Origin: Candidatus Bipolaricaulis anaerobius
Lineage (GTDB): Bacteria; Bipolaricaulota; Bipolaricaulia; Bipolaricaulales; Bipolaricaulaceae
Direction: 5' to 3'
Length of the DNA stretch: 64,000 nucleotides
Assembly: GCF_900465355.1 (NCBI RefSeq)
Contig: NZ_LS483254.1
Location: 186,001 to 250,000 of the forward strand
In this document: positions 28,663 to 45,963 of the stretch, piece after piece
How the letters are laid out: each line of letters begins with the position of its first letter
Numbering within the stretch: position 1 is the stretch's first letter
Notes under the pieces: generated by a model
What the model was told of the DNA's origin: nothing
Databases searched by the model: none
What the model saw: the letters and a program-made list of their open reading frames with translations, nothing else
Program-made: the position numbers and the translations under genes

Positions 28663-29397
28663 GTGGAGATCGCCCATCTCCAACCCCTCTCCCTCCTCGA
28701 CTACCCGGGGAAGGTGAGCGCGGTGGTGTGGACGGTGGGCTGCAACCTCCGCTGCCCGTTCTGCTACAACGCTGAGCTCGTCCTGCCTGGGTTGGCGCAC
28801 GGCCTCCCCCGCCTTCCCCTGGAGGAGGTGGTCGCAGCCCTGACCGAGAGGGCGCGGTTCCTCGACGGGCTCGTCGTCACCGGGGGCGAACCGGCCCTCC
28901 ACCGCGACCTTCCCCTCCTCCTCAGGGAGGTGAAGGAGCTCGGCCTCCGCGTCAAGCTCGACACGAACGGGACCCGTCCCGCCGTCCTTCGCTCCTTGCT
29001 CGGAGACGGGCTCGTGGACTACGTGGCCCTCGACGTCAAGGCGCCGTTCGCGCGGTACCCCGAGTTCACGGGCCTTCTCCCCCTGCCCCATGTAGCGTCG
29101 GAGCCTGTCCCCGACGTCGTCACGCTGGTTCGGGAGTCGGTCGCTCTCGTTCGGGAGCGCGCCCCGGACTACGAGTTCCGCACCACGGTCGCTCCCGGGC
29201 TCGCTCCAGACGACCTGTTCTCCATCGCTCACGGGATCAGGGGTGCCCGGCGCTACGTGCTGCAACCGTTCTTCGTTCCAGATGGGAAGCGGCTTGTGGA
29301 CGAGGAGTGGCGGGGCCGACCAGCTCTCTCTTCAGACACGTTGCGGGCGCTCCTCCCCGAACTTCAGAAGAGCGTGCCGACCGAGCTCCGCGGCTAG
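28663..29397 (+). CDS. nrdG: Anaerobic ribonucleotide reductase activating protein (radical SAM)
   Basis: A 244-residue radical SAM enzyme that installs the glycyl radical. The cluster motif is CNLRCPFC near residues 25-32, preceded by LDYPGKVSAVVWTVG; the SAM-binding VVTGGEPALH follows, and DYVALDVKAP is typical of glycyl-radical activases. GTG start 2 bases after the radical-domain gene stop, so the nrdD, radical domain and nrdG genes form one tight operon. The stop overlaps the trpS stop (convergent) by 3 bases. Confidence 0.92.
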   Translation: MEIAHLQPLSLLDYPGKVSAVVWTVGCNLRCPFCYNAELVLPGLAHGLPRLPLEEVVAALTERARFLDGLVVTGGEPALHRDLPLLLREVKELGLRVKLDTNGTRPAVLRSLLGDGLVDYVALDVKAPFARYPEFTGLLPLPHVASEPVPDVVTLVRESVALVRERAPDYEFRTTVAPGLAPDDLFSIAHGIRGARRYVLQPFFVPDGKRLVDEEWRGRPALSSDTLRALLPELQKSVPTELRG

Positions 29398-30368
29398 TCG
29401 AGTCCCACCCGGGCTCGCACCTCGCGCATCGTCTCCCGAGCGATCGCCTGCGCCCGCTGGGCGCCGTGGGCGAGGATTTCGTCCACATCTCCGCGGGCGG
29501 CGAGCTCGCGGCGGCGCTCCCGGACCGGGCGCAAGGCGGCCATGAGGTGGGTGAAGAGGGCCTCCTTGAGGTCGCGGTAGAGGAGCTTCCCCACCTTGTG
29601 GTCGCGGCGGAACGCCTCCACCACCTCCTGTGGGGCCACGAGTTCAAGCAGGGAGAACAGGTTGGCGACACCGGGGGACATCCCCTGGCCCGGGGTGAGC
29701 CCGACGTCAGTCACCGCCGAGCGGACCTTCTTGCGGATGCTTTCCTCCGGCTCCATGAGGCCGATGTAGTGGTCGGGCCCGGCGGACTTGCTCATCTTCC
29801 GCTCCGGATCGGCGAGGGACATGATCCGCGCCCCCTCACCGAGGATCGGCTCCGGCTCGGGGAATGTTCCCCCGAACCGGAAGTTGAACCGCCGCGCGAT
29901 CCGCCGCGCCTCCTCCAGGTGCTGGACCTGGTCCTCCCCCACCGGGACGTGGTCGGCGCGGTAGAGGAGGATGTCCGCTGCCTGGAGGACCGGATAGTAG
30001 AACAGGCCACCGTTGATGAACTCCTGCTCCGCGGCCTTCTCTTTGAACTGGGTCATCCGGGTCAGGTCCCCGTAGGAGGCGACACAGCCCAGGATCCAGC
30101 ACAGCTCCGTGTGCTCTGGGACGGCGGACTGGACATAGAGGACAGACCGCTCAGGGTCGATCCCGCACGCGACGAGGTCGAGGGCGAGCTCCCGTCGCGC
30201 CGTGCGGAGCTCGGCGGGCACCGTGTCCTCGTTGGTGAGGGCGTGGTAATCCACGATGCAGTAGATGCAGTCGTTCCCCTGCTGGAGCTCGACCCAGCGC
30301 TCGATCGCCCCGAAGTAGTTCCCGATGTGGAGCTCCCCTGTTGGCTGGATGCCTGAGAAGATGCGCAT
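29394..30368 (-). CDS. trpS: Tryptophanyl-tRNA synthetase
   Basis: A 324-residue class I synthetase. MRIFSGIQPTGELHIGNYFG carries the HIGH-type motif (HIGN), and KMSKSAGPDHY is the KMSKS loop. The ATG at 30368 is the family start. A promoter-like TTGTGG-N17-TATACT lies on the minus strand (30383-30411), giving a leader of only about 8 bases. Positions 29650-30368 of the gene (first ~239 codons) recur as a truncated copy at 39150-39868. This copy is the complete, functional one. Confidence 0.97.
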   Translation of the reverse strand: MRIFSGIQPTGELHIGNYFGAIERWVELQQGNDCIYCIVDYHALTNEDTVPAELRTARRELALDLVACGIDPERSVLYVQSAVPEHTELCWILGCVASYGDLTRMTQFKEKAAEQEFINGGLFYYPVLQAADILLYRADHVPVGEDQVQHLEEARRIARRFNFRFGGTFPEPEPILGEGARIMSLADPERKMSKSAGPDHYIGLMEPEESIRKKVRSAVTDVGLTPGQGMSPGVANLFSLLELVAPQEVVEAFRRDHKVGKLLYRDLKEALFTHLMAALRPVRERRRELAARGDVDEILAHGAQRAQAIARETMREVRARVGLD

Positions 30369-30482
30369 GGATGATCGGCGGCAGTATAGGGAGCTTCGCG
30401 CCTGCCCACAAGAGACTCTCCTCGGCAACCAGCGGGACGGAGCCGAGTCGGGACTTGTTCGAGGAATGATCTGGTTGGACGA
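29650..30482. repeat. Duplicated block 1, copy A (trpS 5' part plus upstream region)
   Basis: This 833-bp stretch matches 39150-39982 at a constant offset of 9500 with no indel. I count 15 substitutions, about 98.2% identity. All 15 fall inside trpS and only two change the protein (Asp/Glu, Val/Ala). The noncoding ~115 bp upstream of trpS is identical in both copies. Confidence 0.97.
30383..30411 (-). promoter_or_regulatory. Probable trpS promoter
   Basis: On the minus strand: TTGTGG (-35, 30406-30411), 17-bp spacer, TATACT (-10, 30383-30388). Predicted transcription start is about 8 bases before the trpS ATG, with no Shine-Dalgarno. The same sequence occurs in the duplicated copy at 39883-39911. 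Confidence 0.6.
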
Positions 30483-30487
30483 GGTTC

Positions 30488-30583: not shown

Positions 30584-31279
30584 ATGACCGATCCGAACGC
30601 GAAGCCCTTCACTTGCACCTCCTGTGTGTCCCGCTCCAGGTGTGTCCTATCGGCAGTGGAACCCGAAGTCCTCGCGAGCTCAGCGTCACGCGTCCAGTGG
30701 GTCCGTTTCGAGAGGGGAGGGACGATCATCCACGAGGGGACTCTCTCCACGGGGTGGGCGATCCTGTGCCACGGGCGAGCCAGGCTCACCGTGAGCACAG
30801 AGAAAGGGAAGAGGCTGCACCTGCGTTTCTACGGCTCGGGCGAGCTCCTTGAGGCGTCGCTATCTGAACCTCACGGTTTCTCTGTGACGGCCGTAGCCCA
30901 TTGCACCATCGGGTTTGTCGCAAGAGAGCACGTCCTGGATCTTGGTCGGCGGTATCCTGAGTTGCTCTTCCAGGTCCACCAGCGGTTCGAAGAGACACAG
31001 CGTCATCTGGCAACGAGGCTGGTGGATCTCGCCTACGCCGGCACCCGGCAACGCCTGGTGCGGGTGCTCCTGGAACTCGGGGAGGAGCACGGGGCAGCGG
31101 AGGGAGGTGGGGTGCGGATCGACATCCCGCTTTCGCTCCGCGACCTGGCGGAGATGATCGGAGCAAGCCGACAAGCGACCTGCAAGGAACTCCAGCTGCT
31201 GCGTGCCAAGGGGTTGATCGAAGTTGTGTGGCCGAGGGTCTTCCTCTCGGACCTGGAGCACCTGCGCCAGCTCAGCTGA
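30584..31279 (+). CDS. FNR-like iron-sulfur transcription regulator (Crp/Fnr family)
   Basis: A 231-residue protein. The N-terminus carries Cys11-x2-Cys14-x5-Cys20, exactly the CX2CX5C spacing of E. coli FNR, and a central Cys107 (AVAHCTIGFV) sits where FNR Cys122 does. These four would ligate an oxygen-labile [4Fe-4S] cluster. Residues 25-120 form the cyclic-nucleotide-like beta-roll, then a dimer helix, then a winged helix (183-212, SLRDLAEMIGASRQATCKEL). The recognition helix is SRQATCKE rather than FNR's, so the DNA site should differ from TTGAT-N4-ATCAA. It lies directly upstream of paired palindromes and cassette A. Confidence 0.88.
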   Translation: MTDPNAKPFTCTSCVSRSRCVLSAVEPEVLASSASRVQWVRFERGGTIIHEGTLSTGWAILCHGRARLTVSTEKGKRLHLRFYGSGELLEASLSEPHGFSVTAVAHCTIGFVAREHVLDLGRRYPELLFQVHQRFEETQRHLATRLVDLAYAGTRQRLVRVLLELGEEHGAAEGGGVRIDIPLSLRDLAEMIGASRQATCKELQLLRAKGLIEVVWPRVFLSDLEHLRQLS

Positions 31280-31386
31280 CGAATGTCCTGCTCGCGGAAG
31301 GACCCTTGTTCCAGACTGCTCTTCGCCCTCTACCTACATTCGCCTCGGCGAACGCCGTCGTTCGCCAAGACGAACGGAATCGTTCA
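31017..31386. repeat. Duplicated block 2, copy A (regulator 3' part, operators)
   Basis: Matches 40050-40415. I see six substitutions in the coding part, all synonymous, three in the noncoding part and one 4-bp indel (CTAC at about 31334). The block ends just after the second operator palindrome; the sequences then diverge completely into two different cassettes. Confidence 0.95.
31347..31385. promoter_or_regulatory. Paired palindromic operators of cassette A
   Basis: Site 1 is GGCGAACGCCGTCGTTCGCC (31347-31366), a perfect inverted repeat. Site 2 is GAACGGAATCGTTC (31372-31385), also perfect. They share CGAACG-N3-TCGTTC. The centres are 22 bp apart, two helical turns, so dimers would sit on the same face. 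A possible promoter follows (TTGATC 31396-31401, TACTAT 31421-31426, 19-bp spacer), placing the sites upstream as for an activator. The FNR-like protein is the obvious candidate, by context only. Confidence 0.7.
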
Positions 31387-31462
31387 ACTTGGTGGTTGAT
31401 CGCGGGTTCAGGCTTTCGGATACTATATCATTCTTAACTCCAATGTGTGAAGGAGGTGAAGT

Positions 31463-31582
31463 ATGGTGTTTGATGTGCAAGAGCTGACAGTGGAGGAATT
31501 GAAAGCGCTGCCGGACTTAATCGGGGAACTGGCACTTGGCTGCGGCTACATCCTCTGTGGGGCTTGCGAGAAGCCGCAGTAG
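31463..31582 (+). CDS. Cys-containing precursor-like peptide of cassette A, 39 aa
   Basis: The ATG has a perfect AGGAGGTGA ribosome binding site. The N-terminal part is acidic and leucine-rich (MVFDVQELTVEELKALP, then DLIGELALG), as expected of a leader. It ends GCGYILCGACEKPQ with Cys27, Cys32 and Cys35. This leader/core layout, placed 65 bp before a SPASM radical SAM enzyme with a PqqD-like N-terminus, is that of a ribosomally made, post-translationally modified peptide (RiPP), probably thioether-crosslinked. I do not recognise the family. Confidence 0.8.
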   Translation: MVFDVQELTVEELKALPDLIGELALGCGYILCGACEKPQ

Positions 31583-31592
31583 CCACAGGACG

Positions 31593-31627
31593 AGCCGAGG
31601 CCACCGTAAGGAAGCGGTGGCTCGGCT
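31593..31627 (+). promoter_or_regulatory. Stem-loop between precursor A and its radical SAM gene
   Basis: AGCCGAGGCCACCG (31593-31606), an 8-base loop, CGGTGGCTCGGCT (31615-31627): 13 pairs with one bulged G. No T-run follows. Such a stem could protect or part-terminate the message so that more peptide than enzyme is made. A different stem occupies the equivalent gap in cassette B. Confidence 0.6.
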
Positions 31628-31646
31628 GTTGCAGGGGGGGAATCAA

Positions 31647-33032
31647 GTGGCAGAGAGGTGGCGGATCTGGCCAGCGCCGGGTGAGGGGCGGTTCATCGTC
31701 TTCGACACCGAAAGTCTGCGCTTCCTTGAGGTCGAGAGCAGGGTTGCCGAGATACTCGAGGGGGTAATGGAAGGTGCGCCGTATGCAAAGCTGGCGGCTG
31801 AGGCCCGCTGCTCGGAAAACGACATCTCGGCATTGCTGCTGCGCCTTCAGGGCGATTCAGCGCCAACGAACGAGGAGCCGGCGGGGCGCGTGCCAGCGCC
31901 TCTCGGCAAGCTTTCCCTCAATGTCTCGCATATCTGCAATATGCGGTGTTCATACTGTTATGCGAGAGGAGGGGACTACGGACACGGCCCCAGCTTGATG
32001 TCAGCGCAGACGGCTGTCGCGGCTTTGGAAGTAGTACGGGAGAGGTTTGGAGGCTGTCGGACGATTCAGTTCTTTGGGGGGGAGCCCCTTCTCAACTGGC
32101 CAGCGATACTCGCCGTGTGTGAATACATAGATGCTAACTGGCGGGATCTGCCTGTGCAGCCCCGCCTCGGCGTGGTTACCAACCTAGCCTACCTACCAGA
32201 CCAATTCGACAAGATAGTGAACCACTTCCAGCTTCATGTGACAGTAAGCCTGGACGGACCTGCGCAAGTAAACGATCAACACCGGCTTCTGCTGGATGGA
32301 GGAGGTAGCTACCGCGTGGTTGCTGAGAATATTCGAAGGCTGCAATCTGCAACATCGCAACCCCGTGCAGTTGAAGCGACGTTCACCATGGCCCATCGGG
32401 CACAGGGTTGGACTGGCGACACGTTGCGTGCGTTTTTTCAGGATACGTTTGACATCAGCGTAGTCCTCGTCGCACCTGCGTGGGACCCCAACCAGCCGGG
32501 TCTTGCCCATGAGCTGGCGCCTTTCGTTCGGGATCGAGTGACCTGTCTTGCGCCTGGGATCACATGCCGAGAGACGGTGGACCCATCAGGGTTGTTCGAC
32601 ATGCTCCCCCTCGCCTCGAAGAAGAACTCCCCATACTGGTGCGGGGCCGGGCTTGCCACGCTGACGGTGACTCCCGCCGGGGACATCTACCCATGTCAGC
32701 TGTTCCTCGAACGGCCCGAGTTCAGAATCGGAAACGTCCGCCATGGAACCTGGGATAGCGGAGTTGTGGAGCGGCTTCGTGGAAACACCAAGACAGCGGA
32801 TCACGTATGCCGAGCGTGCGAAGTAAGATGGGCATGCCGCGGCTGCATTGCAGTGGCGCTGGCCAGTCGAGGCACGCTGAACCCCCGCGATGAGAACTTC
32901 TGTAAGCTGATCAGGCAAGGAGCGGAAGAAACACTAAAAGGGTATAGGATCATACTGCTTTCCGATGGAGCGACAAGGCAGCGGGTACGAACCATCGTGG
33001 AACGGGCCTTCACCAGTCGAACTTATGCCTAG
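31647..33032 (+). CDS. Radical SAM/SPASM peptide maturase with PqqD-like recognition domain (cassette A)
   Basis: 461 residues from GTG 31647 (purine-rich GGGGGG before it); the longer frame would overlap the stem-loop and peptide. Residues 1-70 (RFIVFDTESLRFLEVES and following helices) look like a PqqD-type RiPP recognition element. The SAM cluster motif is CNMRCSYC (Cys97, 101, 104). The SPASM region near the C-terminus has CGAGLATLTVTPAGDIYPC, then CRACEVRWACRGC and a last Cys in DENFC, enough for two auxiliary 4Fe-4S clusters. Architecture is like ranthipeptide/SCIFF maturases. Less GC-rich than core genes, suggesting transfer. Confidence 0.87.
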   Translation: MAERWRIWPAPGEGRFIVFDTESLRFLEVESRVAEILEGVMEGAPYAKLAAEARCSENDISALLLRLQGDSAPTNEEPAGRVPAPLGKLSLNVSHICNMRCSYCYARGGDYGHGPSLMSAQTAVAALEVVRERFGGCRTIQFFGGEPLLNWPAILAVCEYIDANWRDLPVQPRLGVVTNLAYLPDQFDKIVNHFQLHVTVSLDGPAQVNDQHRLLLDGGGSYRVVAENIRRLQSATSQPRAVEATFTMAHRAQGWTGDTLRAFFQDTFDISVVLVAPAWDPNQPGLAHELAPFVRDRVTCLAPGITCRETVDPSGLFDMLPLASKKNSPYWCGAGLATLTVTPAGDIYPCQLFLERPEFRIGNVRHGTWDSGVVERLRGNTKTADHVCRACEVRWACRGCIAVALASRGTLNPRDENFCKLIRQGAEETLKGYRIILLSDGATRQRVRTIVERAFTSRTYA

Positions 33033-34296
33033 CCGGCTTGCTGGCTATCATCGGCTATTGGCGTTGCCGGCTTCCGTGGCTGCGGCGGCTCCGTTTGCGA
33101 CTTACCTTGCCGCTTCTTCTTTGACGTTGTTCGGTGACTCCTTGTTTGAGATGGCTGTGATCTGGCACATTATGGAGGCAACGGGTTCTGCTGCTGTAGT
33201 CGGGGGGGTCGCGGCTGCGATTCAGCTACCTGTAGCGCTGAGTGCGGCTTTCGCCGGCGTGTTGGCCGACCGCTGGAGCCGGAAGAAGCTGATCGTCTTC
33301 TCGAAGGTAGCGCGAGGGAGCGTCGTGGCCAGCGTCTTCCTCTTCTATCGGCTGGGGGTGCTAACACCCTGGCACCTGCTGGCAGTTGGCGTTCTCGACT
33401 CGTTTATCCAGGTTCTAGGCGGAGCCGCCAGCACGGCAGTGATCCCGAATCTCGTGGATAGAGAGAGGGTGATGACAGCTAACTCCTGGCTTGAGGGCAT
33501 ACGTACGGGCACCCCGATCGCTGCGCAGGGCTTGGCCGGGCTCATCATTGCTGCCACGGGGATTGCTGGAGCTGCTGGGATTACCTCAACGCTGTTTCTC
33601 GCAGGCGCAGGGTTGTTCGCTCTCATTGCTGATGTTCGGTACGGAGGCGGAGGGAGCAAGGGTAGGCGGCTTACTGGGAGGGTCTTTGCCGTGGAGTTCT
33701 GGAACGGCTTAAGGCAGGCGCTGCGCAGTAGAGCTGTCAGGTGGTTGATGCTCGTAGGTTTGGTAACGAACCTGCTTATTGCTGGACCAATCTTCGTTTT
33801 GATGCCGTTCTACGCGTCTACGGTGTTGGAGGCGGGAGCTTCAGGATACGGGTACATGAAGGCGGCGATGACCGTGGGCTCCCTTATCGGTGCTCTCGTT
33901 GTAGGGCGTTTCGGCAGACGGATGACAGTAGGGGCATGGCTCGGAGTGGGCATCGGTGTTCTCGGAGCGCTGCTCGCTTCTCTATCATTTTCGCCTTCTC
34001 TCTGGGTGGCGTGCATCCTTTGGGCAGTCGTGGGTATATGCCTGCCTATCGTCAACATACCGGTTTTCACTGCGCTGCAGTTGTCCACGCCTGATGACCG
34101 CCGGGCCCGGACGATGACCGTCTTCATGACTCTGGCAGGTGCTAGTACGCCAGCCTCGTTGGCCTTGGTTGGTCAAGCGGTGAGAGTGGCGGGGATCGAA
34201 GGGACGTTTCTTGCTACAGGCTTGCTGGTGACTCTGGTGGGCATCGGAGCGTGGATTTGGAGAACTCGGTTCGAAATTGCTGCTACGTCGTGGTGA
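33025..34296 (+). CDS. MFS transporter (cassette A)
   Basis: 423 residues, about 12 hydrophobic helices, major facilitator superfamily of the MFS_3/macrolide-exporter type. The loop 2-3 signature GVLADRWSRKKLIVFSK is clear. Start ATG 33025 overlaps the end of the maturase by 8 bases; a longer frame from 32965 is possible. In context it is the likely exporter, or self-protection pump, for the modified peptide. No fused peptidase domain is present. Confidence 0.88.
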   Translation: MPSRLAGYHRLLALPASVAAAAPFATYLAASSLTLFGDSLFEMAVIWHIMEATGSAAVVGGVAAAIQLPVALSAAFAGVLADRWSRKKLIVFSKVARGSVVASVFLFYRLGVLTPWHLLAVGVLDSFIQVLGGAASTAVIPNLVDRERVMTANSWLEGIRTGTPIAAQGLAGLIIAATGIAGAAGITSTLFLAGAGLFALIADVRYGGGGSKGRRLTGRVFAVEFWNGLRQALRSRAVRWLMLVGLVTNLLIAGPIFVLMPFYASTVLEAGASGYGYMKAAMTVGSLIGALVVGRFGRRMTVGAWLGVGIGVLGALLASLSFSPSLWVACILWAVVGICLPIVNIPVFTALQLSTPDDRRARTMTVFMTLAGASTPASLALVGQAVRVAGIEGTFLATGLLVTLVGIGAWIWRTRFEIAATSW

Positions 34297-34736
34297 AGGC
34301 ACGGCCCGTGCTGAACTGGGCAGTTGACGCCTGCCGGCCAGGCAAGGGCCGGGAGCAGATGGGTTTCATGTTCGTACGGCCCCTCGGCGAGACAGGGCGT
34401 TTCGCCTGTTGCGAGTTCATACCGGTTCCCGACAATCGACTCCTCCGCCAGGCACGTGATGCCATTACTTCAGACCCACTCTGCCTAATCTGGGCGTGTC
34501 GCCACGCCAAGGAGACGGGGACGGTTCTGTTCATGGTTCATACCCATGTAGCCGTGACAGCGGCGTTCTCTGAGCTAGATGACAAGACAGAACGAAGAGT
34601 CGCTCGCTGTGTCATGGAGCTAACGGGTGTGGAGCGGTTTGGAGCGGTCGTCTTGTCGTTGAAAGAGCACCGAGCGCGACTCTGGCAAAGCTGCGGCGAT
34701 GATCTCGTTCAGACCGCCGTGACGCTCGAAGCCTGA
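34293..34736 (+). CDS. JAMM/MPN+ (JAB1-type) metalloprotease-like protein (cassette A)
   Basis: About 147 residues from the GTG that overlaps the MFS stop as GTGA (an in-frame GTG at 34251 is an alternative). The JAMM zinc motif is complete: Glu21 in GREQMGF, then HTHVAVTAAFSELD with His83, His85, Ser93 and Asp96 in exact H-x-H-x7-S-x2-D spacing. JAMM proteins cleave isopeptide or peptide bonds, and bacterial ones often accompany ubiquitin-like or sulfur-carrier systems. In this operon a leader peptidase role is conceivable, but that is inference. Several extra cysteines. Confidence 0.78.
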   Translation: MKARPVLNWAVDACRPGKGREQMGFMFVRPLGETGRFACCEFIPVPDNRLLRQARDAITSDPLCLIWACRHAKETGTVLFMVHTHVAVTAAFSELDDKTERRVARCVMELTGVERFGAVVLSLKEHRARLWQSCGDDLVQTAVTLEA

Positions 34737-34755
34737 GCAACGCAGAGGGGGAAGA

Positions 34756-34965
34756 GTGTCCTTTTCTGTAAGGAGGGGCCTTGGGGCAACGTTGATCGTG
34801 GTCGCTCACCGCCTTTCTACGATCTACATGGCTGACCGGATCTACCTCCTGGAAGGGGGACCCGTCGTCTGTAAGGGCGCGCATGGAGAACTCCTTGCGC
34901 GCTGCCACGGGTACCGCGCCCTGTTTGAGAAGCAGCTCGTGCACGAGAGCGGGGTGCGCCCCTGA
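34756..34965 (+). pseudogene. C-terminal fragment of an ABC exporter ATPase
   Basis: About 70 codons remain. ATLIVVAHRLSTIYMADRIY carries the H-loop histidine and switch region of an ABCB-type exporter, then VVCKGAHGELLARCHGYRALFEKQ. Walker A, signature and Walker B are missing, as is the whole membrane domain. Its stop codon lies inside the left inverted repeat of the IS3 element. It may be what is left of a cassette A exporter. Confidence 0.8.
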
Positions 34966-36268
34966 AGCGGGACCACCAGGACGACTAACGACCGACGACC
35001 GACCTTCGGGTGTATTCTCCCCTGGGAAGAGAGGAGGGGTGAGGTGAGCACGCAGAACGGCAGGTACAGTTCGGCGTTCAAGTTCCAGGTGGTGTTGGAA
35101 TCCCTGAAGGCTGAAGGAAAAGGCGGGGAGGCTCAGGTGGCCCGGGCGTACGGGATCCACCCAGTGACGCTGTCCAACTGGAAGAGGCAGTTCCTCCAGC
35201 GTGGACCGGAGGTGTTCGGGGGCACAGAGGAGGTCAAGGGGTACGAGAAGAGGATTGCGGATCTGGAGCGGGTAGTCGGCCAGAAGGAAGTGGAGATTGC
35301 GCTTCTCACAAATTTCTTGAAGGGGCGCTGACGGTGGACAAGAAGATCGAGCTGGTGGAGGTGCACCGTGGGAAGCACGGGCTCAACCGATGCCTGCGTG
35401 CCCTGGGGGTATCGAAGGGGACCTGGCATCGCCACCAGTGCCGTCCGGCAGTGCCCGCAGCGGACGAGAAGCTGAAAGCGGAGGTGCTATCCGTGGTGCG
35501 GGAGCATCCGGCGTACGGGTACCGGAGGATCCAGGTCGAGCTGCGGGAGCGGACCGGGGAGCGGGTGAACCACAAGCGGCTGCGGAGGCTGCTTGGCACC
35601 TGGGATCTGGCTCTGCCTCGGAAGGTGGCCCGCCCCTGGCCGAGCGGGGTGCGGCAGATCCTCAGGACGGGCCGAGGGAAGCTCGATCTGGTACAGGGAA
35701 GGGAGATGGAGCCGCTGGAGGCACTGTCGACGGACTTCACGGAGATCCGGTACGCTGGGGGAACGAAGAAGGCGCACCTGATGGCGATGGTGGATGTGGG
35801 GAGTGCGTGGGTGCCGGGGTGGGCGGTGGGGTCCTCGGCAGACCGCAGCCTGGCCCTGCGCTGCTGGGAAACGGTGAAGGAAGCGTTGGCTCACGTCGGC
35901 CGGGGAACGGAGGGGGTGATCGTGCACCACGACCACGACGCGGTGTACACAAGCTACGACTGGTTGCAGACGCTCCTCATCCGGGACCGAGCGCGGGTGT
36001 CCTACGCTGAGCGGGGTGCGCGGGACAACCCGTGGATCGAGTCGTTGTGGGGCCACTTCAAGGTGGAGAACGGTTCACTCCTCTCCGAGGCGGCGACCCT
36101 GGAGGAGCTGGAGTGGGTCATTGACCGGCAGATGCTGTACTACAACCAGGAACGGCGGCACTCGGGACTTGGCTACCGAGCGCCGATGGCGTACCTGGAA
36201 GACGAGGGGATCCACCCAAAGGTCTTAGTCGAAATCGGCCCTCGAAGTGGTTCCGTTTTAGGGGCGCA
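34955..36268 (+). mobile_element. IS3-family insertion sequence, 1314 bp
   Basis: Bounded by imperfect 23-bp inverted repeats: TGCGCCCCTGAAGCGGGACC (34955 on, continuing ACC to 34977) and, reversed, TGCGCCCCTAAAACGGAACC (36268 back to 36246). I count 19 of 23 bases shared. The ends are TG...CA as in IS3 elements. It carries orfA and orfB. No clean target-site duplication is visible (GGGG on the left, GGTC on the right), so flanking DNA may have rearranged. No second copy lies in the window. Confidence 0.85.
35044..35331 (+). CDS. IS3-family transposase OrfA
   Basis: 95 residues: an N-terminal helix-turn-helix (YSSAFKFQVVLESLKAEG to GIHPVTLSNWKRQF) followed by a leucine-zipper-like coil (EEVKGYEKRIADLERVVGQKEVEIALL). 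GTG start with GAGGAGGGG upstream. It binds the element ends and partners OrfB. The stop is 2 bases before the OrfB GTG, so OrfB could be made by reinitiation or by the frameshift usual in the family. Confidence 0.93.
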   Translation: MSTQNGRYSSAFKFQVVLESLKAEGKGGEAQVARAYGIHPVTLSNWKRQFLQRGPEVFGGTEEVKGYEKRIADLERVVGQKEVEIALLTNFLKGR

Positions 36269-36350
36269 GGTCCGAGGGAGGCTGCTCCCGAGCAGAGCGC
36301 AGCAGCGGAGGGGTGAGACATGGCGGTGGCGTATGAGGTGGCAGGGCTGA
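35334..36350 (+). CDS. IS3-family transposase OrfB (integrase catalytic domain)
   Basis: 338 residues as read. Residues 40-110 are the HTH_21 region (VREHPAYGYRRIQVEL). The rve domain has the DDE triad at Asp134 (STDFTEIRY), Asp200 (VHHDHDAVYTS) and Glu236 (NPWIESLWGHFKVE). The frame has no stop inside the element: it passes through the right inverted repeat at 36268 and ends 82 bases later, overlapping the start of the ABC gene at 36320. The last ~27 residues are therefore probably not native. Confidence 0.92.
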   Translation: MDKKIELVEVHRGKHGLNRCLRALGVSKGTWHRHQCRPAVPAADEKLKAEVLSVVREHPAYGYRRIQVELRERTGERVNHKRLRRLLGTWDLALPRKVARPWPSGVRQILRTGRGKLDLVQGREMEPLEALSTDFTEIRYAGGTKKAHLMAMVDVGSAWVPGWAVGSSADRSLALRCWETVKEALAHVGRGTEGVIVHHDHDAVYTSYDWLQTLLIRDRARVSYAERGARDNPWIESLWGHFKVENGSLLSEAATLEELEWVIDRQMLYYNQERRHSGLGYRAPMAYLEDEGIHPKVLVEIGPRSGSVLGAQVRGRLLPSRAQQRRGETWRWRMRWQG

Positions 36351-37261
36351 CAAAGCGGTACCCCGGGCCGAAGGAGGTGCTCGCCAACGACCGCATCGAC
36401 CTTTGCATCGCCACAGGGGAGATCGTGGGGATCTTCGGCCCCAACGGCGCGGGCAAGACGACGCTCGTGCGACAGCTGATGGGCCTCCTCCGTCCTACCG
36501 CGGGCCAGATTCGGCTGTTCGACAACGATCTCGTCCGTGAGCCCACGATAGCCACAAATCACGTGGCCTACTTTGCTCAGGAGACCTCGTACTTCTGGTA
36601 CCTGAAGCCGCGCGAGCTCTTGGCGATTACGGGCCGATTGCGAGGGCTCACGTCAAGAGAGGCGAACAGCCAGGCGTATTCGTTGCTGGGTAAGTTCAAT
36701 CTAGGGAACCTGGCGGGGAAGACCCTGTCCCGCCTCAGCTTCGGGCAGGCGCGGTTCGTGGCGCTGTTATCGGTGTTCATGGGAAACCGGCCGATCCTGA
36801 TCCTGGACGAGCCGACGAACGATCTCGATCCCCTGCACCGGCGCGCCTTCTGGGACTACCTGTGGGAGGTGAACAGTCGAGAAGGGACCACCGTGCTCCT
36901 CGTTACCCACAACGTGCACGAGGCGGAGCACGTGGTGCACCGGGTGGTGATCGTGGATGCAGGGCGCATCGTCGCCTCGGGTACGCCCGGCGAGCTCAAG
37001 GCGGGGCTGGAAGGTCAGGTTCGGGTGGAGGTTGCTCTGGCGGAGCCCCTCAACAATCACGAGCTGCCGACGTTCGCAGGCTGCGAGAGGCTCCCCGCGA
37101 AGCGGAACACCCTCTTGCTCCAGACGGCCCGGGAGAACGTGGAGGCGGTGATCCGTGCTGTGTACGACCGTTTCCCCTCAGGCGCGGTAAGCGACCTGCG
37201 GGTCGTCCCCCCGACCTTGGAGGACGTCTATGTGCAGACCGTGGGGAAGGAGTGGGGATGA
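36320..37261 (+). CDS. ABC-2 type transporter ATP-binding protein
   Basis: 313 residues with Walker A GPNGAGKTT (40-48), Q-loop YFAQET, a variant signature LSFGQ, Walker B ILILDEPTNDLDP and H-loop VTHNVHEA. A C-terminal ~80-residue extension follows, as in CcmA/BcrA-type drug or bacteriocin exporters. GGAGGGG ribosome binding site before ATG. It overlaps the permease gene in ATGA. Located between the two RiPP-like cassettes, it may serve immunity or export, but that rests on position only. Confidence 0.92.
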   Translation: MAVAYEVAGLTKRYPGPKEVLANDRIDLCIATGEIVGIFGPNGAGKTTLVRQLMGLLRPTAGQIRLFDNDLVREPTIATNHVAYFAQETSYFWYLKPRELLAITGRLRGLTSREANSQAYSLLGKFNLGNLAGKTLSRLSFGQARFVALLSVFMGNRPILILDEPTNDLDPLHRRAFWDYLWEVNSREGTTVLLVTHNVHEAEHVVHRVVIVDAGRIVASGTPGELKAGLEGQVRVEVALAEPLNNHELPTFAGCERLPAKRNTLLLQTARENVEAVIRAVYDRFPSGAVSDLRVVPPTLEDVYVQTVGKEWG

Positions 37262-38028
37262 AACGGGTGTGGACCAAAACGAGGAAACTCGTGGTGGATA
37301 GCTGGCTAGTGTTCGTCAGCCGGATGTTCGAGGTCCGGCACATGTGGGTATGGTCTGTGGTCATGATCAGCTTCTTCCCGCTCTCGATCATGGGCTTCCT
37401 ACTCCTGTTCGGCGAGTCTACGCCGGAGCGGATCCTCTACATCGTCACCGGTAGCATCACCAACGCCGTTTCCCTCCAAGCAGGGCTATCGTTGGGGCAG
37501 AGGATCGGGAGCATGAAGGCCCACCGAGTGTTCGACTACTACGCTTCCCTTCCCATCTCGAAACTCTCGTTCATCTTTGGGCTCAACCTGAACGCGTTGC
37601 TTTTGTGCGTGCCTTCGTCCCTTATCCTTCTGACCATCTCCATGCTGGCCTTCCGGTTGCGGATTGTGAACCCAGCTCTCTTCGTTGCGACGTTCGTGCT
37701 CGGGGGGTTCTCTCTGGCTGGGGTGGGGGCAATGATTGGGTTCTACAGCCGCAGCGGCCAGATCGCGGGTATCCTCACCCAGGTTGTCGATCCAATCCTT
37801 GTGTTTTTCGCTCCAGTGTACATGCCCGAGGATGTGTTGCCGACCTTCCTTCGCTACACGGCGCCGTTCCTTCCCACCACGCACGTGGCACGGCTGTTGC
37901 GCGCCGCGTTCGGGCATCCCACGGAGCGGATATACCAACCCATAGTCATCCTTGTCGGGTTCATCTTCATCACGGTGATCCTTGTCCAACGCGGGCTGGA
38001 CTGGCGCGGCGACCGCCCGTTGGCCTGA
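37258..38028 (+). CDS. ABC-2 type transporter permease
   Basis: 256 residues with about six hydrophobic helices. The layout (FEVRHMWVWSVVMISFFPLS; GSITNAVSLQAGLSLGQRIG; VDPILVFFAPVYMPEDVLP then FLPTTHVARLLR) matches ABC-2 permeases. It is the membrane half of the transporter whose ATPase is encoded immediately upstream. A 121-bp gap without gene follows. Confidence 0.88.
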   Translation: MKRVWTKTRKLVVDSWLVFVSRMFEVRHMWVWSVVMISFFPLSIMGFLLLFGESTPERILYIVTGSITNAVSLQAGLSLGQRIGSMKAHRVFDYYASLPISKLSFIFGLNLNALLLCVPSSLILLTISMLAFRLRIVNPALFVATFVLGGFSLAGVGAMIGFYSRSGQIAGILTQVVDPILVFFAPVYMPEDVLPTFLRYTAPFLPTTHVARLLRAAFGHPTERIYQPIVILVGFIFITVILVQRGLDWRGDRPLA

Positions 38029-38149
38029 GAAGTGTCGATAGGGACTGAAGGCGCTGGATCCGGAGACGGTCGCGCACTTCTGCACCCCCGAACCGGAACG
38101 CAGCATGGGGTTGTTGACAGGCGCCGGAGGCGTCGAGGAGGGAGAGGAA

Positions 38150-39034
38150 ATGTGGGAGATCCTCCATAGGGTGAAGCGGACGTTCGAACGGAGCCTGCCC
38201 GTGACCGGGCACGTGCGGCTGGAGGTGCGCACCGAGAGCGGCGACGTGGCCGTGCGGGAAGGAGCTGATGACGTTGTTCGCGTCCGGGGCCGGATCTGGG
38301 TCTCAGGACCTCGCGATGAGGTCCGGGAGGTGCTGGAGGAGATCGAGCGTCATCCACCGGTCGAGCAGATCGGTTCCACCCTCCGGATCGGCGACCTCCC
38401 CTCGCGGCTCGAGCGGGACAACTGCTCGGTGGCCGCTGACTACTGGATCGAGGCGCCTGTCGATACGGAGGTTCAGGTGGAGGTGGACTCCGGGGACGTG
38501 AAGATCGTTGGGTTACGGGGGCCGGTCGTGGCGAAGCTCGGTTCGGGCGATGTCGAGGTGGCGCGGATCGAGGGCGACCTCGAGGTGCAGGTGGACAGCG
38601 GGGATGCGGAAGGAGGTCAGCTCCGCGGGAGAGCATGGTTCGACATAGACAGCGGTGACCTCGATCTGTGCGACGTCCGGGGACCTGTCCGAGCGGTGGT
38701 CGACTCGGGGGACGTGGCGTTGGCCGATCTCGGCCCTGAGCTGGAACTGAGCGTGGACTCGGGGGACGTCAGCCTCGCCTCGGCCGTGCCCGACGGGGCA
38801 CGGTGGAGGGTGTATACGGACTCGGGCGACGTCGCGGTCTGTCTTCCCCGCGGCAGCCGATGCGTGATGGAGGCGGAGGCGAGCTCGGGGGACCTCGACT
38901 GCGACCTTCCGCTGGTGGTGGAGACCGACGACGAAGGGGCCTCGGCTCGCGGTACCCTGGGAGAGGGGGCCACGGCGCGGATCGAGATCTCGACCGACAA
39001 CGGGGACATCGCCCTCCGCTGGAGGGACCGGTAG
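38150..39034 (+). CDS. DUF4097-like protein with SGD repeats
   Basis: 294 residues from an ATG with GGAGGGAGAGGAA directly upstream. No signal peptide or membrane helix. From about residue 25 it is a series of ~20-residue units each ending in a SGDV/SGDL turn (VDSGDVKIVGL, VDSGDVALADL, TDSGDVAVCLP and others, about ten). This is typical of the DUF4097 beta-solenoid. Such proteins often stand beside ABC transporters or regulators; function unknown. Four cysteines. Confidence 0.82.
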   Translation: MWEILHRVKRTFERSLPVTGHVRLEVRTESGDVAVREGADDVVRVRGRIWVSGPRDEVREVLEEIERHPPVEQIGSTLRIGDLPSRLERDNCSVAADYWIEAPVDTEVQVEVDSGDVKIVGLRGPVVAKLGSGDVEVARIEGDLEVQVDSGDAEGGQLRGRAWFDIDSGDLDLCDVRGPVRAVVDSGDVALADLGPELELSVDSGDVSLASAVPDGARWRVYTDSGDVAVCLPRGSRCVMEAEASSGDLDCDLPLVVETDDEGASARGTLGEGATARIEISTDNGDIALRWRDR

Positions 39035-39149
39035 ACCTCGGGGACCCCATCGCACCCGGAACGCCCCGCGATCGCAGGGTGGCTCGCGAACCGGCCCGCG
39101 CGGTGAGTTAGTGATCGCATCTGCATTCCGCGTGGTTCCATCGGCATGG

Positions 39150-39868
39150 AGGGAGAACAGGTTGGCGACACCGGGGGACATCCCCTGGCCCGGGGTGAGC
39201 CCGACGTCAGTCACCGCCGAGCGGACCTTCTTGCGGATGCTTTCCTCCGGCTCCATGAGGCCGATGTAGTGGTCGGGCCCGGCGGACTTGCTCATCTTCC
39301 GCTCCGGGTCGGCGAGGGACATGATCCGCGCCCCCTCACCGAGGATCGGCTCCGGTTCGGGGAATGTTCCCCCGAACCGGAAGTTGAACCGCCGCGCGAT
39401 CCGCCGCGCCTCCTCCAGGTGCTGGACCTGGTCCTCCCCCACCGGGACGTGGTCGGCGCGGTAGAGGAGGATGTCCGCTGCCTGGAGGACCGGATAGTAG
39501 AACAGGCCACCGTTGATGAACTCCTGCTCCGCGGCCTTCTCTTTGAACTGGGTCATCCGCGTCAGGTCCCCGTACGAGGCGACACAGCCCAGGATCCAGC
39601 ATAGCTCCGTGTGCTCCGGGACGGCGGACTGGACATAGAGGACAGACCGCTCAGGGTCGATCCCGCACGCGACGAGGTCGAGGGCGAGCTCCCGCCGCGC
39701 CGTGCGGAGCTCGGCGGGCACCGTGTCCTCGTTGGTGAGAGCGTGGTAGTCGGCGATACAGTAGATACACTCGTTTCCCTGCTGGAGCTCGACCCAGCGC
39801 TCGATCGCCCCGAAGTAGTTCCCGATGTGGAGCTCCCCTGTTGGCTGGATGCCTGAGAAGATGCGCAT
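39150..39868 (-). pseudogene. Truncated second copy of trpS
   Basis: Codons 1 to ~239 of trpS, from MRIFSGIQPTG to GVANLFS, with the HIGN and KMSKS motifs intact. The C-terminal quarter (anticodon-recognition region) is missing, and the frame runs into unrelated DNA. It differs from the full gene by Asp to Glu and Val to Ala only; the remaining differences are synonymous. Its promoter is also copied, so a truncated protein could be expressed, although it should not charge tRNA. Confidence 0.93.
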
Positions 39869-39982
39869 GGATGATCGGCGGCAGTATAGGGAGCTTCGCG
39901 CCTGCCCACAAGAGACTCTCCTCGGCAACCAGCGGGACGGAGCCGAGTCGGGACTTGTTCGAGGAATGATCTGGTTGGACGA
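39150..39982. repeat. Duplicated block 1, copy B
   Basis: Counterpart of 29650-30482. The left end falls inside trpS coding sequence, and the right end 115 bp upstream of the start codon. The next 67 bp (39983-40049) match nothing in the window and replace the 534 bp that in copy A hold the regulator promoter and its sensory domain. Confidence 0.97.
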
Positions 39983-40049
39983 CGGTACCCTGAAGCGCTG
40001 CTTGCCGCCCACCACCGACTTGCCCATGAGCAGGGCCGTCTCGTGCGGC

Positions 40050-40312
40050 GGCTGGTGGATCTCGCCTACGCCGGCACCCGGCAACGCCTGGTGCGGGTGC
40101 TCCTAGAACTCGGGGAGGAGCACGGGGCAGCGGAGGGAGGTGGGGTGCGGATCGATATTCCTCTTTCGCTTCGGGACCTGGCGGAGATGATCGGAGCAAG
40201 CCGACAAGCGACCTGCAAGGAACTCCAGCTGCTGCGTGCCAAGGGGTTGATCGAAGTTGTGTGGCCGAGGGTCTTCCTCTCGGACCTGGAGCACCTGCGC
40301 CAGCTCAGCTGA
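40050..40312 (+). pseudogene. C-terminal (DNA-binding) half of the FNR-like regulator
   Basis: Encodes residues ~145-231 of the regulator, identical in protein sequence to the intact copy, with six synonymous changes. The cysteine cluster and sensory roll are gone. An in-frame GTG at 40043 could start an 89-residue protein holding only the winged helix, but no good ribosome binding site precedes it. If made, it could compete for the operators. More likely it is a remnant. Confidence 0.88.
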
Positions 40313-40375
40313 CGAATGTCCTGCTCGCGGAAGAACTCTTGTTCCAGACTGCTCTTCGCCCTCTACATTCGCCTC

Positions 40376-40414
40376 GGCGAACGCCGTCGTTCGCCTAGAC
40401 GAACGGAATCGTTC
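40376..40414. promoter_or_regulatory. Paired palindromic operators of cassette B
   Basis: The same two perfect palindromes as before cassette A, at 40376-40395 and 40401-40414, again 22 bp centre to centre. The spacer differs by one base (CCTAGA against CCAAGA). The peptide ATG is 72 bases downstream. The intact regulator at 30.6 kb could act here in trans. Confidence 0.7.
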
Positions 40415-40485
40415 AGCCAGCTGATTCCCGCTGAGGAGCACACCGCCATACGCTAGTGCCAGCTGCAAGTAAGGGGGTGATCGGA

Positions 40486-40596
40486 ATGGTGGCACTCAAG
40501 CTGAGAGTGACAACCCCTGAACGGCAAGATCCGGGGCAGCCCGTAGCCATGACCGGACACGGCCACGGGCACCATTGTCACGCCAGTCCAGACTGA
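40486..40596 (+). CDS. His/Cys-rich precursor-like peptide of cassette B, 36 aa
   Basis: ATG after AAGGGGGTGA. The N-terminal two thirds (MVALKLRVTTPERQDPGQPV) is a plausible leader. The C-terminus is TGHGHGHHCHASPD, five His and one Cys within ten residues, a metal-binding composition. It sits 86 bp before a SPASM radical SAM gene. I recall uncharacterised radical-SAM-linked precursors named CbpA with partner CbpB as a possible match, but cannot confirm this. Confidence 0.75.
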   Translation: MVALKLRVTTPERQDPGQPVAMTGHGHGHHCHASPD

Positions 40597-40609
40597 GTTG
40601 TCTGGGATG

Positions 40610-40654
40610 CCCAGCCTGGGGCCTCAGTGCGCCGCCAAAGGACCCCAGGTTGGG
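40610..40654 (+). promoter_or_regulatory. Stem-loop between precursor B and its radical SAM gene
   Basis: CCCAGCCTGGGG (40610-40621), 21-base loop, CCCCAGGTTGGG (40643-40654): a 12-pair stem with one G-T pair. Different in sequence from the cassette A stem but in the same position, between peptide stop and maturase start. Confidence 0.6.
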
Positions 40655-40682
40655 CTCTGCACTGAAAGGGTGGGTGTCTGCC

Positions 40683-42059
40683 ATGGGCATGACAGACTTT
40701 CGGACGATCTCTCTAGGCGAGGGTGCTTCTGTGGTGTTGGAGCCAGAGACCTTGCTTTGGGTGATTGCAGAGTCGAAGCAGCTCAAACAGGCTCACAGGC
40801 TGTTGAGCGATACCTATAGCGAGCTTCAAGATGATCTAAAGCAAGACACTGAGCGAATGAGGACCTCCCATCTCGTTGACATGATAGAGCTCCATCCGAC
40901 AGCAGTATGCAATATGCGGTGTGCGTACTGCTACATACCGGAAGCGTACCGCAAGCGACCCTTGGTTATGAGCCGTGACGACGTTGATCGGGTTGTGCGT
41001 AAGGTACTCTCATGGGTAGAGGAGAAGGGAGGCATGAAGAGGATCATCTTTCATGGTGGTGAACCTCTCTTGGCCAGGGATTCAATCTTCCCGGTGATCG
41101 ACAGGTACTGGCGTGATGTTGAGTTCGGGATTCAGACGAACGCCACGCTCCTGACTCAAGGGGATGCAGACTTCATCAAGGAGAGGAATGTTCATGTTAG
41201 TCTTTCGCTCGACGGTCACACAGCGGAAGTGAACGATAGGTGTCGTCAGTACTCCAATGGGGGCAGCACGTTTGATGATGTAGTGCGTAACATCAGCCTG
41301 TTCAGGGATTTCGAATGGAATGGCGTGATCGTTACGATCACCAGACACAATGTTGGCTATCTGGCCGAGATGCTGCGCTTTCTGTATGGAATGGGCATCC
41401 GGTCGGCTCTGTTTAACCCTGTTTCACCAGCGAATCCCGCAGCCGCTCTGCTCATGCCAAAGACCGAAGATCTCCTTGCAGGCTACAGAGGGTTGATCAA
41501 TGAGCTAGTACGGCTCAATACTGTACCGGGAGCTCGCCGTTTCGTTGTCGATAACATCGAATCGCTTGTCGTTGCGCTCGTCACATCGAACATGCGGGTG
41601 CTCTACTGCCATATGACGCCTTGCGGCGCAGGAAGATTCATGTACGTCATTGACCCTGCAGGCTACGTCTACCCGTGTTCTGAGTTTGTGGGGCATGAGG
41701 AGTTCCGCTGTGGCAACATCTTCTCTGACCCTATGGCCGAAGTGCTCGATGCTCCTCCCTGTAAGCGGCTTCGCGCCAGGTATGTTGAACGAGTAAAAGG
41801 ATGCATATCCTGCGAGTACCGGATGATCTGCGGGGCGAACTGCCCAGCTGCTGTTCAGAGTCTGTCAGGCAACCTGGACGGCAGATCGCCCTACTGCGAG
41901 TTCCTCAAGGGGAGCGTGAACTTGATCTTCCGAACATTCCTTGATCACGGCATCGAGAGTGCATTCTGCCTTGTGAGCACCAGATTCGAGGAGATGCTGC
42001 GAAAGAGTGCATTGCTTCTGGATGCGAGCCAAGGCGGTGCGAGGCAACCCCGTGCGTAG
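40683..42059 (+). CDS. Radical SAM/SPASM peptide maturase (cassette B)
   Basis: 458 residues from ATG 40683 (ATG 40689 is also possible). The ~75-residue N-terminal region precedes CNMRCAYC, the SAM cluster motif; IIFHGGEPLLAR is the GGEP motif. The full SPASM signature follows: CGAGRFMYVIDPAGYVYPC, then CISCEYRMICGANC (CX2CX5CX3C) and a final Cys in RSPYCEF. A ~45-residue C-terminal tail follows. Only distantly like the cassette A enzyme: different N-terminus and SPASM spacing. Codon use is less GC-rich than in core genes. Confidence 0.88.
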   Translation: MGMTDFRTISLGEGASVVLEPETLLWVIAESKQLKQAHRLLSDTYSELQDDLKQDTERMRTSHLVDMIELHPTAVCNMRCAYCYIPEAYRKRPLVMSRDDVDRVVRKVLSWVEEKGGMKRIIFHGGEPLLARDSIFPVIDRYWRDVEFGIQTNATLLTQGDADFIKERNVHVSLSLDGHTAEVNDRCRQYSNGGSTFDDVVRNISLFRDFEWNGVIVTITRHNVGYLAEMLRFLYGMGIRSALFNPVSPANPAAALLMPKTEDLLAGYRGLINELVRLNTVPGARRFVVDNIESLVVALVTSNMRVLYCHMTPCGAGRFMYVIDPAGYVYPCSEFVGHEEFRCGNIFSDPMAEVLDAPPCKRLRARYVERVKGCISCEYRMICGANCPAAVQSLSGNLDGRSPYCEFLKGSVNLIFRTFLDHGIESAFCLVSTRFEEMLRKSALLLDASQGGARQPRA

Positions 42060-43305
42060 AGCCCTTGGGGATTATTCCCTCATCCTGCGCTCGAAGAATG
42101 TGCGCACTCTGGTTGTCTCCTCGTGCCTATTGTCCTTCATGCGTGGACCGCTGACATGGCTGTTCCCCATCCTCTTGCTGCGTGCTGGGGGCCCGCTGTT
42201 TCTAGGGGTAGCGTTCGCAGTCGCGAATGTTGATGACACAGTGATGTCGTTCGTCGGTGGCGCGATGGCTGACAGATGGGGAAGAAGACCGATCCTTCTC
42301 TTCTCTCGGCTGATGTACGTATGCGGGGCGTGTCTCCTGCTGGCCTCGATGTTCGTGGGGGGGGCCTTGAGCCGGGCTGCTCTTTTCATTGCAGTGTTGT
42401 TCGCTTACGGGATGAGTGGGATCTCTCCCGGCGCTTCTTCCGCCCTGCTTGTGGAGTCGGTAGAGCCCCGCCATGTGGGGCGAGCCTTTTCGTTGCTCAG
42501 CAGCTCTTCTCTGCTGTTCCGCAGTCTTGGATCAGCGGCCCTAGGCGTCATCTATCAACGGAGCGTGGTGGCGGGCGCCTTCATGCTCATCCTTTTCGCC
42601 CTGAGCAGCACGCTGCTGCTGTTCTGTGTGCGCGAGACGCTGCCTTCACAATCTGCTCGAGACGGAGAGCGGTTAGTCGGACACTTCGTGAACACGTTCC
42701 GCTCCGTCGGTCAGCTTGGCCTACTCGGTCTGGCTCCGCTGCTTCTTCTTGTTGTGGGGAACGGCCTTGGCCATGGAATTGGTGGCAACTACTTCGCGCC
42801 CCTGCTCGAGGAAGGTCACGGGGTTTCGCTAGCAGTTCTCGGCGGTGTCTTCTCAGCGATCCCCCTTCTCCAAGCTACCCTAGTGCTCCCCGCTGGGTGG
42901 TTGGTGGACAGACGCGGTCCCTTCCTTGCTCTGATAACTGGGAATGTGGTCGCCGGCGGGTGGGTAATGCTTGCGGGCGTGACAAAGTGCGCGGATCTTG
43001 CCGTTGCGGCAGTAGTAGTCTCGGGATCGCTAGGTGCGTTCCACGGGATAGGGTATGAGACAGCGGTGGCTAGGCTATCGAACGATCGTATGCGAGCCAC
43101 TCTATTCGGAAGCCTGGAAACGTTGTGGAATGCGATGTTCATAGTAGGACCCCTTGCAGGGGGGGCATTGTATGGGTTTCGGTCAGAACTGACTTTCATC
43201 GCTGCCGGGGCGATCCTCATGTTGACTTTCTTGCCGACCCTGGCAATGAGATACCACGCTGGGCAGAGTGGACAATCACGCCGGGGCGGAGAGTCGCCTT
43301 GGTAG
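42022..43305 (+). CDS. MFS transporter (cassette B)
   Basis: About 427 residues, ~12 helices, with the MFS loop signature GGAMADRWGRRPILLFSR and a second-half counterpart GWLVDRRGPFLALI. The start may be ATG 42022 or GTG 42052; both overlap the maturase end. The sequence is clearly different from the cassette A MFS protein. Likely exporter of the modified peptide. Confidence 0.87.
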   Translation: MRAKAVRGNPVRRALGDYSLILRSKNVRTLVVSSCLLSFMRGPLTWLFPILLLRAGGPLFLGVAFAVANVDDTVMSFVGGAMADRWGRRPILLFSRLMYVCGACLLLASMFVGGALSRAALFIAVLFAYGMSGISPGASSALLVESVEPRHVGRAFSLLSSSSLLFRSLGSAALGVIYQRSVVAGAFMLILFALSSTLLLFCVRETLPSQSARDGERLVGHFVNTFRSVGQLGLLGLAPLLLLVVGNGLGHGIGGNYFAPLLEEGHGVSLAVLGGVFSAIPLLQATLVLPAGWLVDRRGPFLALITGNVVAGGWVMLAGVTKCADLAVAAVVVSGSLGAFHGIGYETAVARLSNDRMRATLFGSLETLWNAMFIVGPLAGGALYGFRSELTFIAAGAILMLTFLPTLAMRYHAGQSGQSRRGGESPW

Positions 43306-43502: not shown

Positions 43503-44262
43503 ATGTTCATCCGCCAGAAGAAGGTTAGGCCGCACGTCTACCTCCAGCTCGTGGAGAACTGCTGGGAGGAGGGAGCTACCCGCCAGCGGACCGTGGCGAG
43601 CTTGGGGAGGTTGGATCGGTTGCAGGAGAGCGGGCAGCTTGAGGTCCTTCTGCGGTCGCTCGGGCGGTGTTTGCCAGCGTCGTGCACCGCCTGTTTGAGT
43701 CCGGGTCCGACCGTCAGGCGGTACGGTTCCTGCGGGACGTGGCCGTCCCGGATCGGACTCCCTGGCGCTCTACCACCTGTACCGGGCGATGCGGTTCCTG
43801 GGGGAGGGCAAAGACCGGATCGAGGAGAAGCTCTTCGCGAGGAACCGCGACTTGTTCACGGACCTCAGGATCGTGTTCTTTGACACGACGAGCCTCTACT
43901 TCCACGGGGAGGGGGGCGAGCTGGGAGCGCGGGGGCACTCTCGGGATCACCGGCCGGAGCTCAACCAGGTGGTGGTGGGAGCACTTCTGTCCGGTGACGG
44001 GCGCCCGATCAGCTGCGAGGTGTACCGGGGGAACCAGACGGATGTGCGGGCGCTCTTGCCGGTGGTGGACCGAGCGCGGGAGCGGTTCGCTCTCCAGGAG
44101 GTGTGCTTCGTCGCCGACCGGGGGATGGTGAGCGACGCCGTGATCCGGGGGCTGGAGGAACGAGGCCTCGGGTACATCCTCGGGATGCGCCTGCGGCGGG
44201 CCAAGGAGGTCCGGGACGTGGTGCTGTCCCATCCTGGGCGGTACCGGAGCGAAGAACCATGA
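43503..44262 (+). pseudogene. Decayed, truncated IS1634/IS4-like transposase
   Basis: The N-terminal part (MFIRQKKVRPHVYLQLVENC, then TRQRTVASLGRLDRL) is in one frame. It breaks near 43680-43790 and continues in another frame as FFDTTSLYFHGEG, the first catalytic Asp region of IS1634-type transposases, to ADRGMVSDAVIRGL and LSHPGRYRSEEP. The C-terminal half with the last catalytic residue is missing. The remnant ends exactly at the ABC exporter start (stop overlaps its ATG), marking the right edge of the island. Confidence 0.82.
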
Positions 44263-45952: not shown

Positions 45953-45963
45953 CGAAGCGGTTG

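Follow-up and report, generated by a model that had tools for sequence, protein, structure and literature searches.

The trpS-glmU interval of a single-contig, 1.32-Mb Bipolaricaulota genome (Candidatus Bipolaricaulis anaerobius) is the site of two cassettes, designated A and B. Each consists of a short peptide gene, a radical-S-adenosylmethionine (radical-SAM)/SPASM maturase and a major facilitator superfamily (MFS) transporter, in that order, preceded by the 3' end of a Crp/FNR-type regulator gene and an operator of ~110 nt. The interval, which also carries traces of more cassettes and two insertion sequences (an IS3-type element and a transposase remnant), lies in a 64,000-nucleotide stretch of contig NZ_LS483254.1, termed the window (Table 1). 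A closed genome of the same group was described as that of an anaerobic fermenter with a class III ribonucleotide reductase (PMC6092417).

On the strength of sequence comparison, the interval is probably a site from which exchangeable cassettes for peptide natural products are expressed at a fixed position. Its Crp/FNR-type activator, encoded beside trpS, would bind tandem dyads spaced by 22 bp just 3' of its own gene, and the bound regulator would drive the promoter of whichever cassette lies downstream. The usual cassette would encode a precursor peptide along with its modifying radical-SAM/SPASM maturase and an exporter. Cassettes would move among strains by homologous recombination in the shared flank (trpS, the regulator 3' end and the operator), and incomplete events would account for the tandem cassettes, truncated regulator and exporter scraps of the window. 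Within this scheme we infer activation, an Fe-S or redox signal, modification of the peptides and a role in competition between strains, in which the products may act as bacteriocins.

The operator and its promoter

The operator is built on the dyad GTTCG-N6-CGAAC, repeated with a period of 22 bp. In operator A the dyads are located at 31338-31353 and 31360-31375, with a degenerate third at 31382-31397, and the promoter comprises a -35 hexamer TTGATC (31396-31401) and a -10 hexamer GATACT (31419-31424). An earlier note on this DNA had described two cassettes of the same gene order, each behind the same pair of palindromes and the same regulator sequence. The gene order and the coordinates of the cassettes hold, and the palindromes are real: those of operator B lie at 40367-40382 and 40389-40404, and the register is kept in 14 aligned copies, in which 92.8% of the in-register dyad positions pair versus at most 43% at a shift of 1-3 columns. 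The regulator sequence before cassette B, however, proved to be the last ~112 codons only, with the helix-turn-helix (HTH) domain and no sensor.

Most operator copies end at a sigma-70-like promoter. In most of them the dyad centres precede the start of the -35 hexamer by 6, 28 or 50 bp and so lie near -41.5, -63.5 and -85.5, a spacing that fits the geometry of a putative class II activator. The half-site also tracks the recognition helix of the adjacent regulator. The SRQ type is found mostly with GTTCG-N6-CGAAC, while the AARPTTSGEL type, which replaces SRQ(A/T)TC, accompanies GTTCA-N6-TGAAC in three of four copies, the remaining one being a hybrid. The genome of the window contains two operators, both within this locus, and two further weak matches are the same dyads on the opposite strand. 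A genome search with the 16-bp dyad, allowing one mismatch, returned 143 sites and is too unspecific to define a regulon. No known RNA element was found with Rfam.

The control module of cassette B is a duplicate, composed of 837 bp from the trpS side (98.1% identical) and 370 bp of regulator end and operator (96.5%), the intervening ~0.5 kb being absent. Since this identity exceeds that to any relative (about 92% at most), the duplicate stems from a close strain or from a past duplication. Cassette B would need the intact regulator in trans, because the copy in front of it lacks the sensor. An assembly artefact was ruled out, as the duplicated blocks diverge by 2-4% and the single-contig genome G009 also has two operators at the same locus.

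Cassettes in related genomes and their exchange

An operator model was searched in 40 genomes of the family. It matched in 15 of them, in a few weakly, and in 14 aligned copies the operator stands behind a regulator end. In total, at least seven unrelated peptide types and six maturase types, plus remnants, lie behind it. The peptides include MSAINKKTWLQSEDVFAGRVGVCCGVICSPYCKQVQT of G007, with homologues in G006 and in G042 (another genus); MMSEREKFLARIAEIERDREKYCCGRGCSPGRDEPT of G008; MKQPYEKPTVAPLEERARHCESPGICCPGKLID and a sister copy in G002 and G001; and MVSDRKEARVVVLEAGFGPGFGPACSVYCSGFCIKIHEPR of G006, with a homologue in G049. The maturases other than A and B scored far below cut-off; their nearest models were TIGR04463, heme b synthase/ScmF, ScmF (with a PqqD partner) and geopeptide. 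Several loci are composite or broken: G022 retains the end of maturase B together with MFS B at 90% identity, in G009 the end of another maturase is joined to a B-type leader and inserted DNA interrupts the first operator, and in G006 a transposase-like open reading frame (ORF) occupies the position of the maturase.

One exchange junction is seen between G001 and G002. Their nrdD-nrdG-trpS regions are 86% identical, but identity rises to 98.5-100% in a stretch that starts inside the operator and extends over the peptide, PqqD, radical-SAM and ABC-2 genes. The final operator mismatch is located directly before ATCGTTCAGC, between dyads 2 and 3. As the jump in identity starts inside the operator, a recent replacement affected either the cassette or the side of the regulator, with the junction in control DNA, and we read this junction as direct evidence of exchange. 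The region thus combines conserved control DNA with strain-variable product genes exchanged by recombination. The earlier note had anticipated that the control module is kept and the product genes exchanged, which the peptide types and the junction described above support well, and had proposed to compare the trpS-glmU interval of relatives for further cassettes behind the same operator.

Outside the genus (G037, G034, G048), a similar cysteine-motif regulator, a diverged operator/promoter, a short peptide, a radical-SAM gene and an exporter appear in the same order, and in G003 a more distant regulator precedes the same kind of arrangement. The pairing is not general to Crp genes, since other paralogues within the class (G034:C25, G026:C26, G028 and G031) have no peptide and radical-SAM gene downstream.

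Several observations weigh against an exchangeable expression site. The promoter of cassette B is a poor sigma-70 match. Because the operator adjoins the regulator end and the two are inherited together, the covariation of helix and half-site is not fully independent evidence. The nrdD-trpS region recombines as well, so that exchange may not be peculiar to the operator. A second operator copy in G007 (G007b) heads the peptide MGGADGRVEILELGRDDAAEPNFCGKFCICPQ and an ABC gene without a radical-SAM gene; the operator of G010 has no peptide; and at second loci of G002 and G006 (L027 and L029, of the AARPTTSGEL type) a DUF4097 gene immediately follows the regulator and operator. Finally, the frame of peptide A has no comparative support, as it is known from a single genome. 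Alternatively, the regulator could be an ordinary local one, and the trpS-glmU interval a hot spot of recombination and insertion, where unrelated genes accumulate and the repeated operator is only a by-product of segment duplication. The frequent insertion sequences and gene scraps, the recombination in nrdD-trpS and the operators that head non-peptide genes all agree with a hot spot. We nevertheless consider it unlikely, since the downstream genes are mostly peptides, radical-SAM enzymes and exporters of unrelated families, the operator register is conserved, and the arrangement recurs with a diverged operator in other families.

The regulator

The full-length regulator carries a cNMP-binding-like domain (PF00027) and a Crp HTH domain (PF13545), both above cut-off, and so belongs to the Crp/Fnr superfamily. 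Its cysteines are arranged as C11-x2-C14-x5-C20 plus C62; in the alignment C11, C20 and C62 never vary, and a single row lacks C14. Escherichia coli FNR has the N-terminal spacing C-x2-C-x5-C, recognizes TTGAT-N4-ATCAA and carries a recognition helix that differs from SRQATCKEL and AARPTTSGEL. The regulator is thus like FNR in its Crp fold and N-terminal cysteine spacing. In contrast to FNR, its fourth conserved cysteine, C62, does not occupy the position of FNR C122, its helix is SRQATCKEL (in the window) or AARPTTSGEL, and its site is GTTC(G/A)-N6-(C/T)GAAC.

The FNR-like cysteine motif suggests that control may be oxygen-responsive. A cassette site whose regulator instead senses another cue (e.g., nitric oxide, redox state or a small ligand), or acts as a repressor, is a substantial possibility with somewhat less than an even chance. 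The closest solved chains to the regulator are mycobacterial CRP/FNR-family regulators, and the cysteine that aligns near FNR C122 is absent in L025, L029 and L037, both of which would suit a different signal; the retention of the N-terminal cysteines and C62, as well as the promoter geometry consistent with activation, argue for an oxygen-responsive activator. An AlphaFold model of the regulator (seven sequences) had a mean pLDDT of 49 and was discarded. In the alignment termed A1 the regulator seems to be a mosaic, in which sensor and HTH segments are combined differently among strains, suggesting recombination within the gene.

Precursor peptides and maturases

Both maturases contain a CxxxCxxC motif and a SPASM match, but are only 27% identical to each other; no full-length similarity was found between MFS A and MFS B, and the peptides are unrelated by inspection. 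The products of the two cassettes are therefore as unlike as the earlier note had stated. When the enzymes and peptides were searched against curated collections, as it had proposed, the enzymes matched PF04055 and PF13186, but none of the tested peptides and maturases attained an NCBIfam family cut-off. The best model for maturase A was TIGR04064 (nif11-type maturase), at 170.8 bits against a cut-off of 518.7, and that for maturase B was TIGR04163 (CbpB), at 340.2 bits over almost the full protein against 375. Peptide A gave no NCBIfam match near cut-off, and peptide B gave none. None of the 99 other phylum genomes searched contained a relative of maturase A at E<=1e-20, and peptide A was found in one genome only. 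The proportion of G+C at third codon positions in the genes of cassettes A and B is 0.62-0.67, versus 0.76-0.93 for most other long ORFs of the window.

A short precursor ORF adjoining a radical-SAM/SPASM enzyme, an arrangement that recurs in the relatives, is the pattern of a radical-SAM cluster for ribosomally synthesized and post-translationally modified peptides (RiPPs). The SPASM maturases, the PqqD protein, the short ORFs with ribosome sites and the exporters make it likely that the cassettes encode RiPPs. Alternatively, the peptides could be no export precursors but serve as signals or, as leader-like ORFs, adjust how the maturases are translated, with the maturases acting on other targets. 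The peptides are indeed tiny, that of cassette A comes from one genome, and one operator heads a peptide and an ABC gene with no maturase. This interpretation appears distinctly improbable in view of the peptide families, which are conserved as proteins (third-position changes being the most frequent class) and have cysteine-rich C-termini, and of the maturases, PqqD protein, JAMM protein and exporters that adjoin them.

Relation to known systems

The nearest precedent in kind is the pneumococcal blp locus (bacteriocin immunity region), which combines conserved regulatory genes with strain-variable peptide genes and transposase scraps, and in which group switching has been ascribed to recombination (PMC4860687). 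The cassette site resembles it in all these features. Unlike blp, which is controlled by a quorum-sensing two-component system and whose bacteriocins are not known to require a radical-SAM maturase, the cassette site carries tandem dyads and a Crp/FNR-type regulator, and peptide and maturase are exchanged as one. No immunity gene was recognized at the cassette site.

A second point of reference is subtilosin, of which AlbA is the radical-SAM maturase. In Bacillus subtilis, oxygen limitation induces the sbo-alb operon (subtilosin A), which is controlled by ResD, AbrB and Rok (PMC6323116). Like the cassettes, it is a peptide operon with a radical-SAM maturase; unlike them, it is under ResD/AbrB/Rok control and has one fixed product and no cassette exchange. 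Induction by oxygen limitation is a feature of sbo-alb, which shows that oxygen control of a radical-SAM peptide is possible. The CbpB family (TIGR04163) is the closest named relative of maturase B, although maturase B falls under its cut-off and peptide B matches no NCBIfam model. In a literature search of partial coverage, no paper was found on RiPPs of the phylum or on such an arrangement.

The locus would represent a natural case of plug-in biosynthesis, with precursor, maturase and exporter swapped jointly behind a single switch. The operator can moreover serve as a search tag, as one 120-nt model reveals radical-SAM peptide families unrecognized by curated models, and it becomes testable whether such loci diversify through recombination at control DNA. 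More tentatively, the regulator 3' end and operator could form a dedicated capture site, both switch and recombination anchor, so that an arriving operator-bearing cassette would immediately come under the resident sensor. If true, this would imply a family-wide exchange pool of undescribed radical-SAM peptides, with the truncated regulators as its scars.

Other features of the window

The remaining parts of the interval include candidate traces of further cassettes. The ABC-exporter remnant at 34756-34965 comes from the peptide exporter of another cassette type, and the ABC exporter at 44256-45911 is probably the leftover of a further cassette. The JAMM protein is a possible leader peptidase of cassette A.

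Table 1. Features of the trpS-glmU interval (positions within the window)
Feature	Coordinates	Strand	Basis and remarks
trpS	29394..30371	-	Left anchor of variable interval; ORF and homology in relatives
Crp/FNR-type regulator, full length	30584..31279	+	PF13545 and PF00027; 60-78% homologues in 7 loci; cysteine alignment
Operator-promoter A	31338..31424	+	Dyads and -35/-10
Precursor peptide A, 39 aa, MVFDVQELTVEELKALPDLIGELALGCGYILCGACEKPQ	31463..31582	+	ATG 31463; ORF with AAGGAGGTG ribosome site
Radical-SAM/SPASM maturase A	31647(GTG)..33032	+	PF04055, PF13186
MFS exporter A	32965..34296	+	PF07690/PF05977
JAMM/JAB metalloprotease-like protein	34251..34736	+	PF14464; motif HTHVAVTAAFSELD (HxHx7SxxD) read from sequence
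ABC-exporter C-terminal remnant	34756..34965	+	75% identity to exporter ends in L030/L031; NHLM-type ABC matches
IS3-type transposase pair	35044..36350	+	PF01527; related element adjoins glmU in L034
Resident ABC-2 transporter (ATPase, permease) and DUF4097 protein	36320..39034	+	Block also in G010, G008, G002, G001
Duplicated partial trpS and upstream DNA	39150..39986	-	98.1% over 837 bp vs 29650-30485
Truncated regulator copy, HTH end only	39974..40312	+	87.5% to residues 120-231; PF13545, no PF00027
Operator B	40367..40426	+	Dyads as in text, third 40411-40426
Precursor peptide B, 36 aa, MVALKLRVTTPERQDPGQPVAMTGHGHGHHCHASPD	40486..40596	+	ATG 40486; ORF; 76% identical leader behind same operator in G009
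Radical-SAM/SPASM maturase B, CbpB-like	about 40683..42059	+	PF04055, PF13186; 88% remnant in G022
MFS exporter B	42007..43305	+	PF07690; 90% homologue behind same operator in G022
Transposase remnant	43503..44262	+	PF01609 in 43789-44259
ABC exporter	44256..45911	+	80-82% identical to exporter of ...CGVICSPYCK peptide cassettes in G007, G006
glmU	45961..47349	+	Right anchor; ORF and homology in relatives

Three further arrangements were observed in the relatives. In G015 (L037:8236-13296) a regulator of the family is followed by a secreted cysteine-rich protein, an AhpC/TSA-like protein and a MacB-type ABC transporter, with the start of a second regulator at the contig end. In G060 (L112:1488-1544) a 19-residue peptide, MKMVIIIIGDGWIIIIIIT, lies between another regulator and ABC transporter genes, with no radical-SAM gene. 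In L024:1-2850 and L028:1331-4621, nrdD is split by an in-frame insert of roughly 310-415 codons, possibly an intein.

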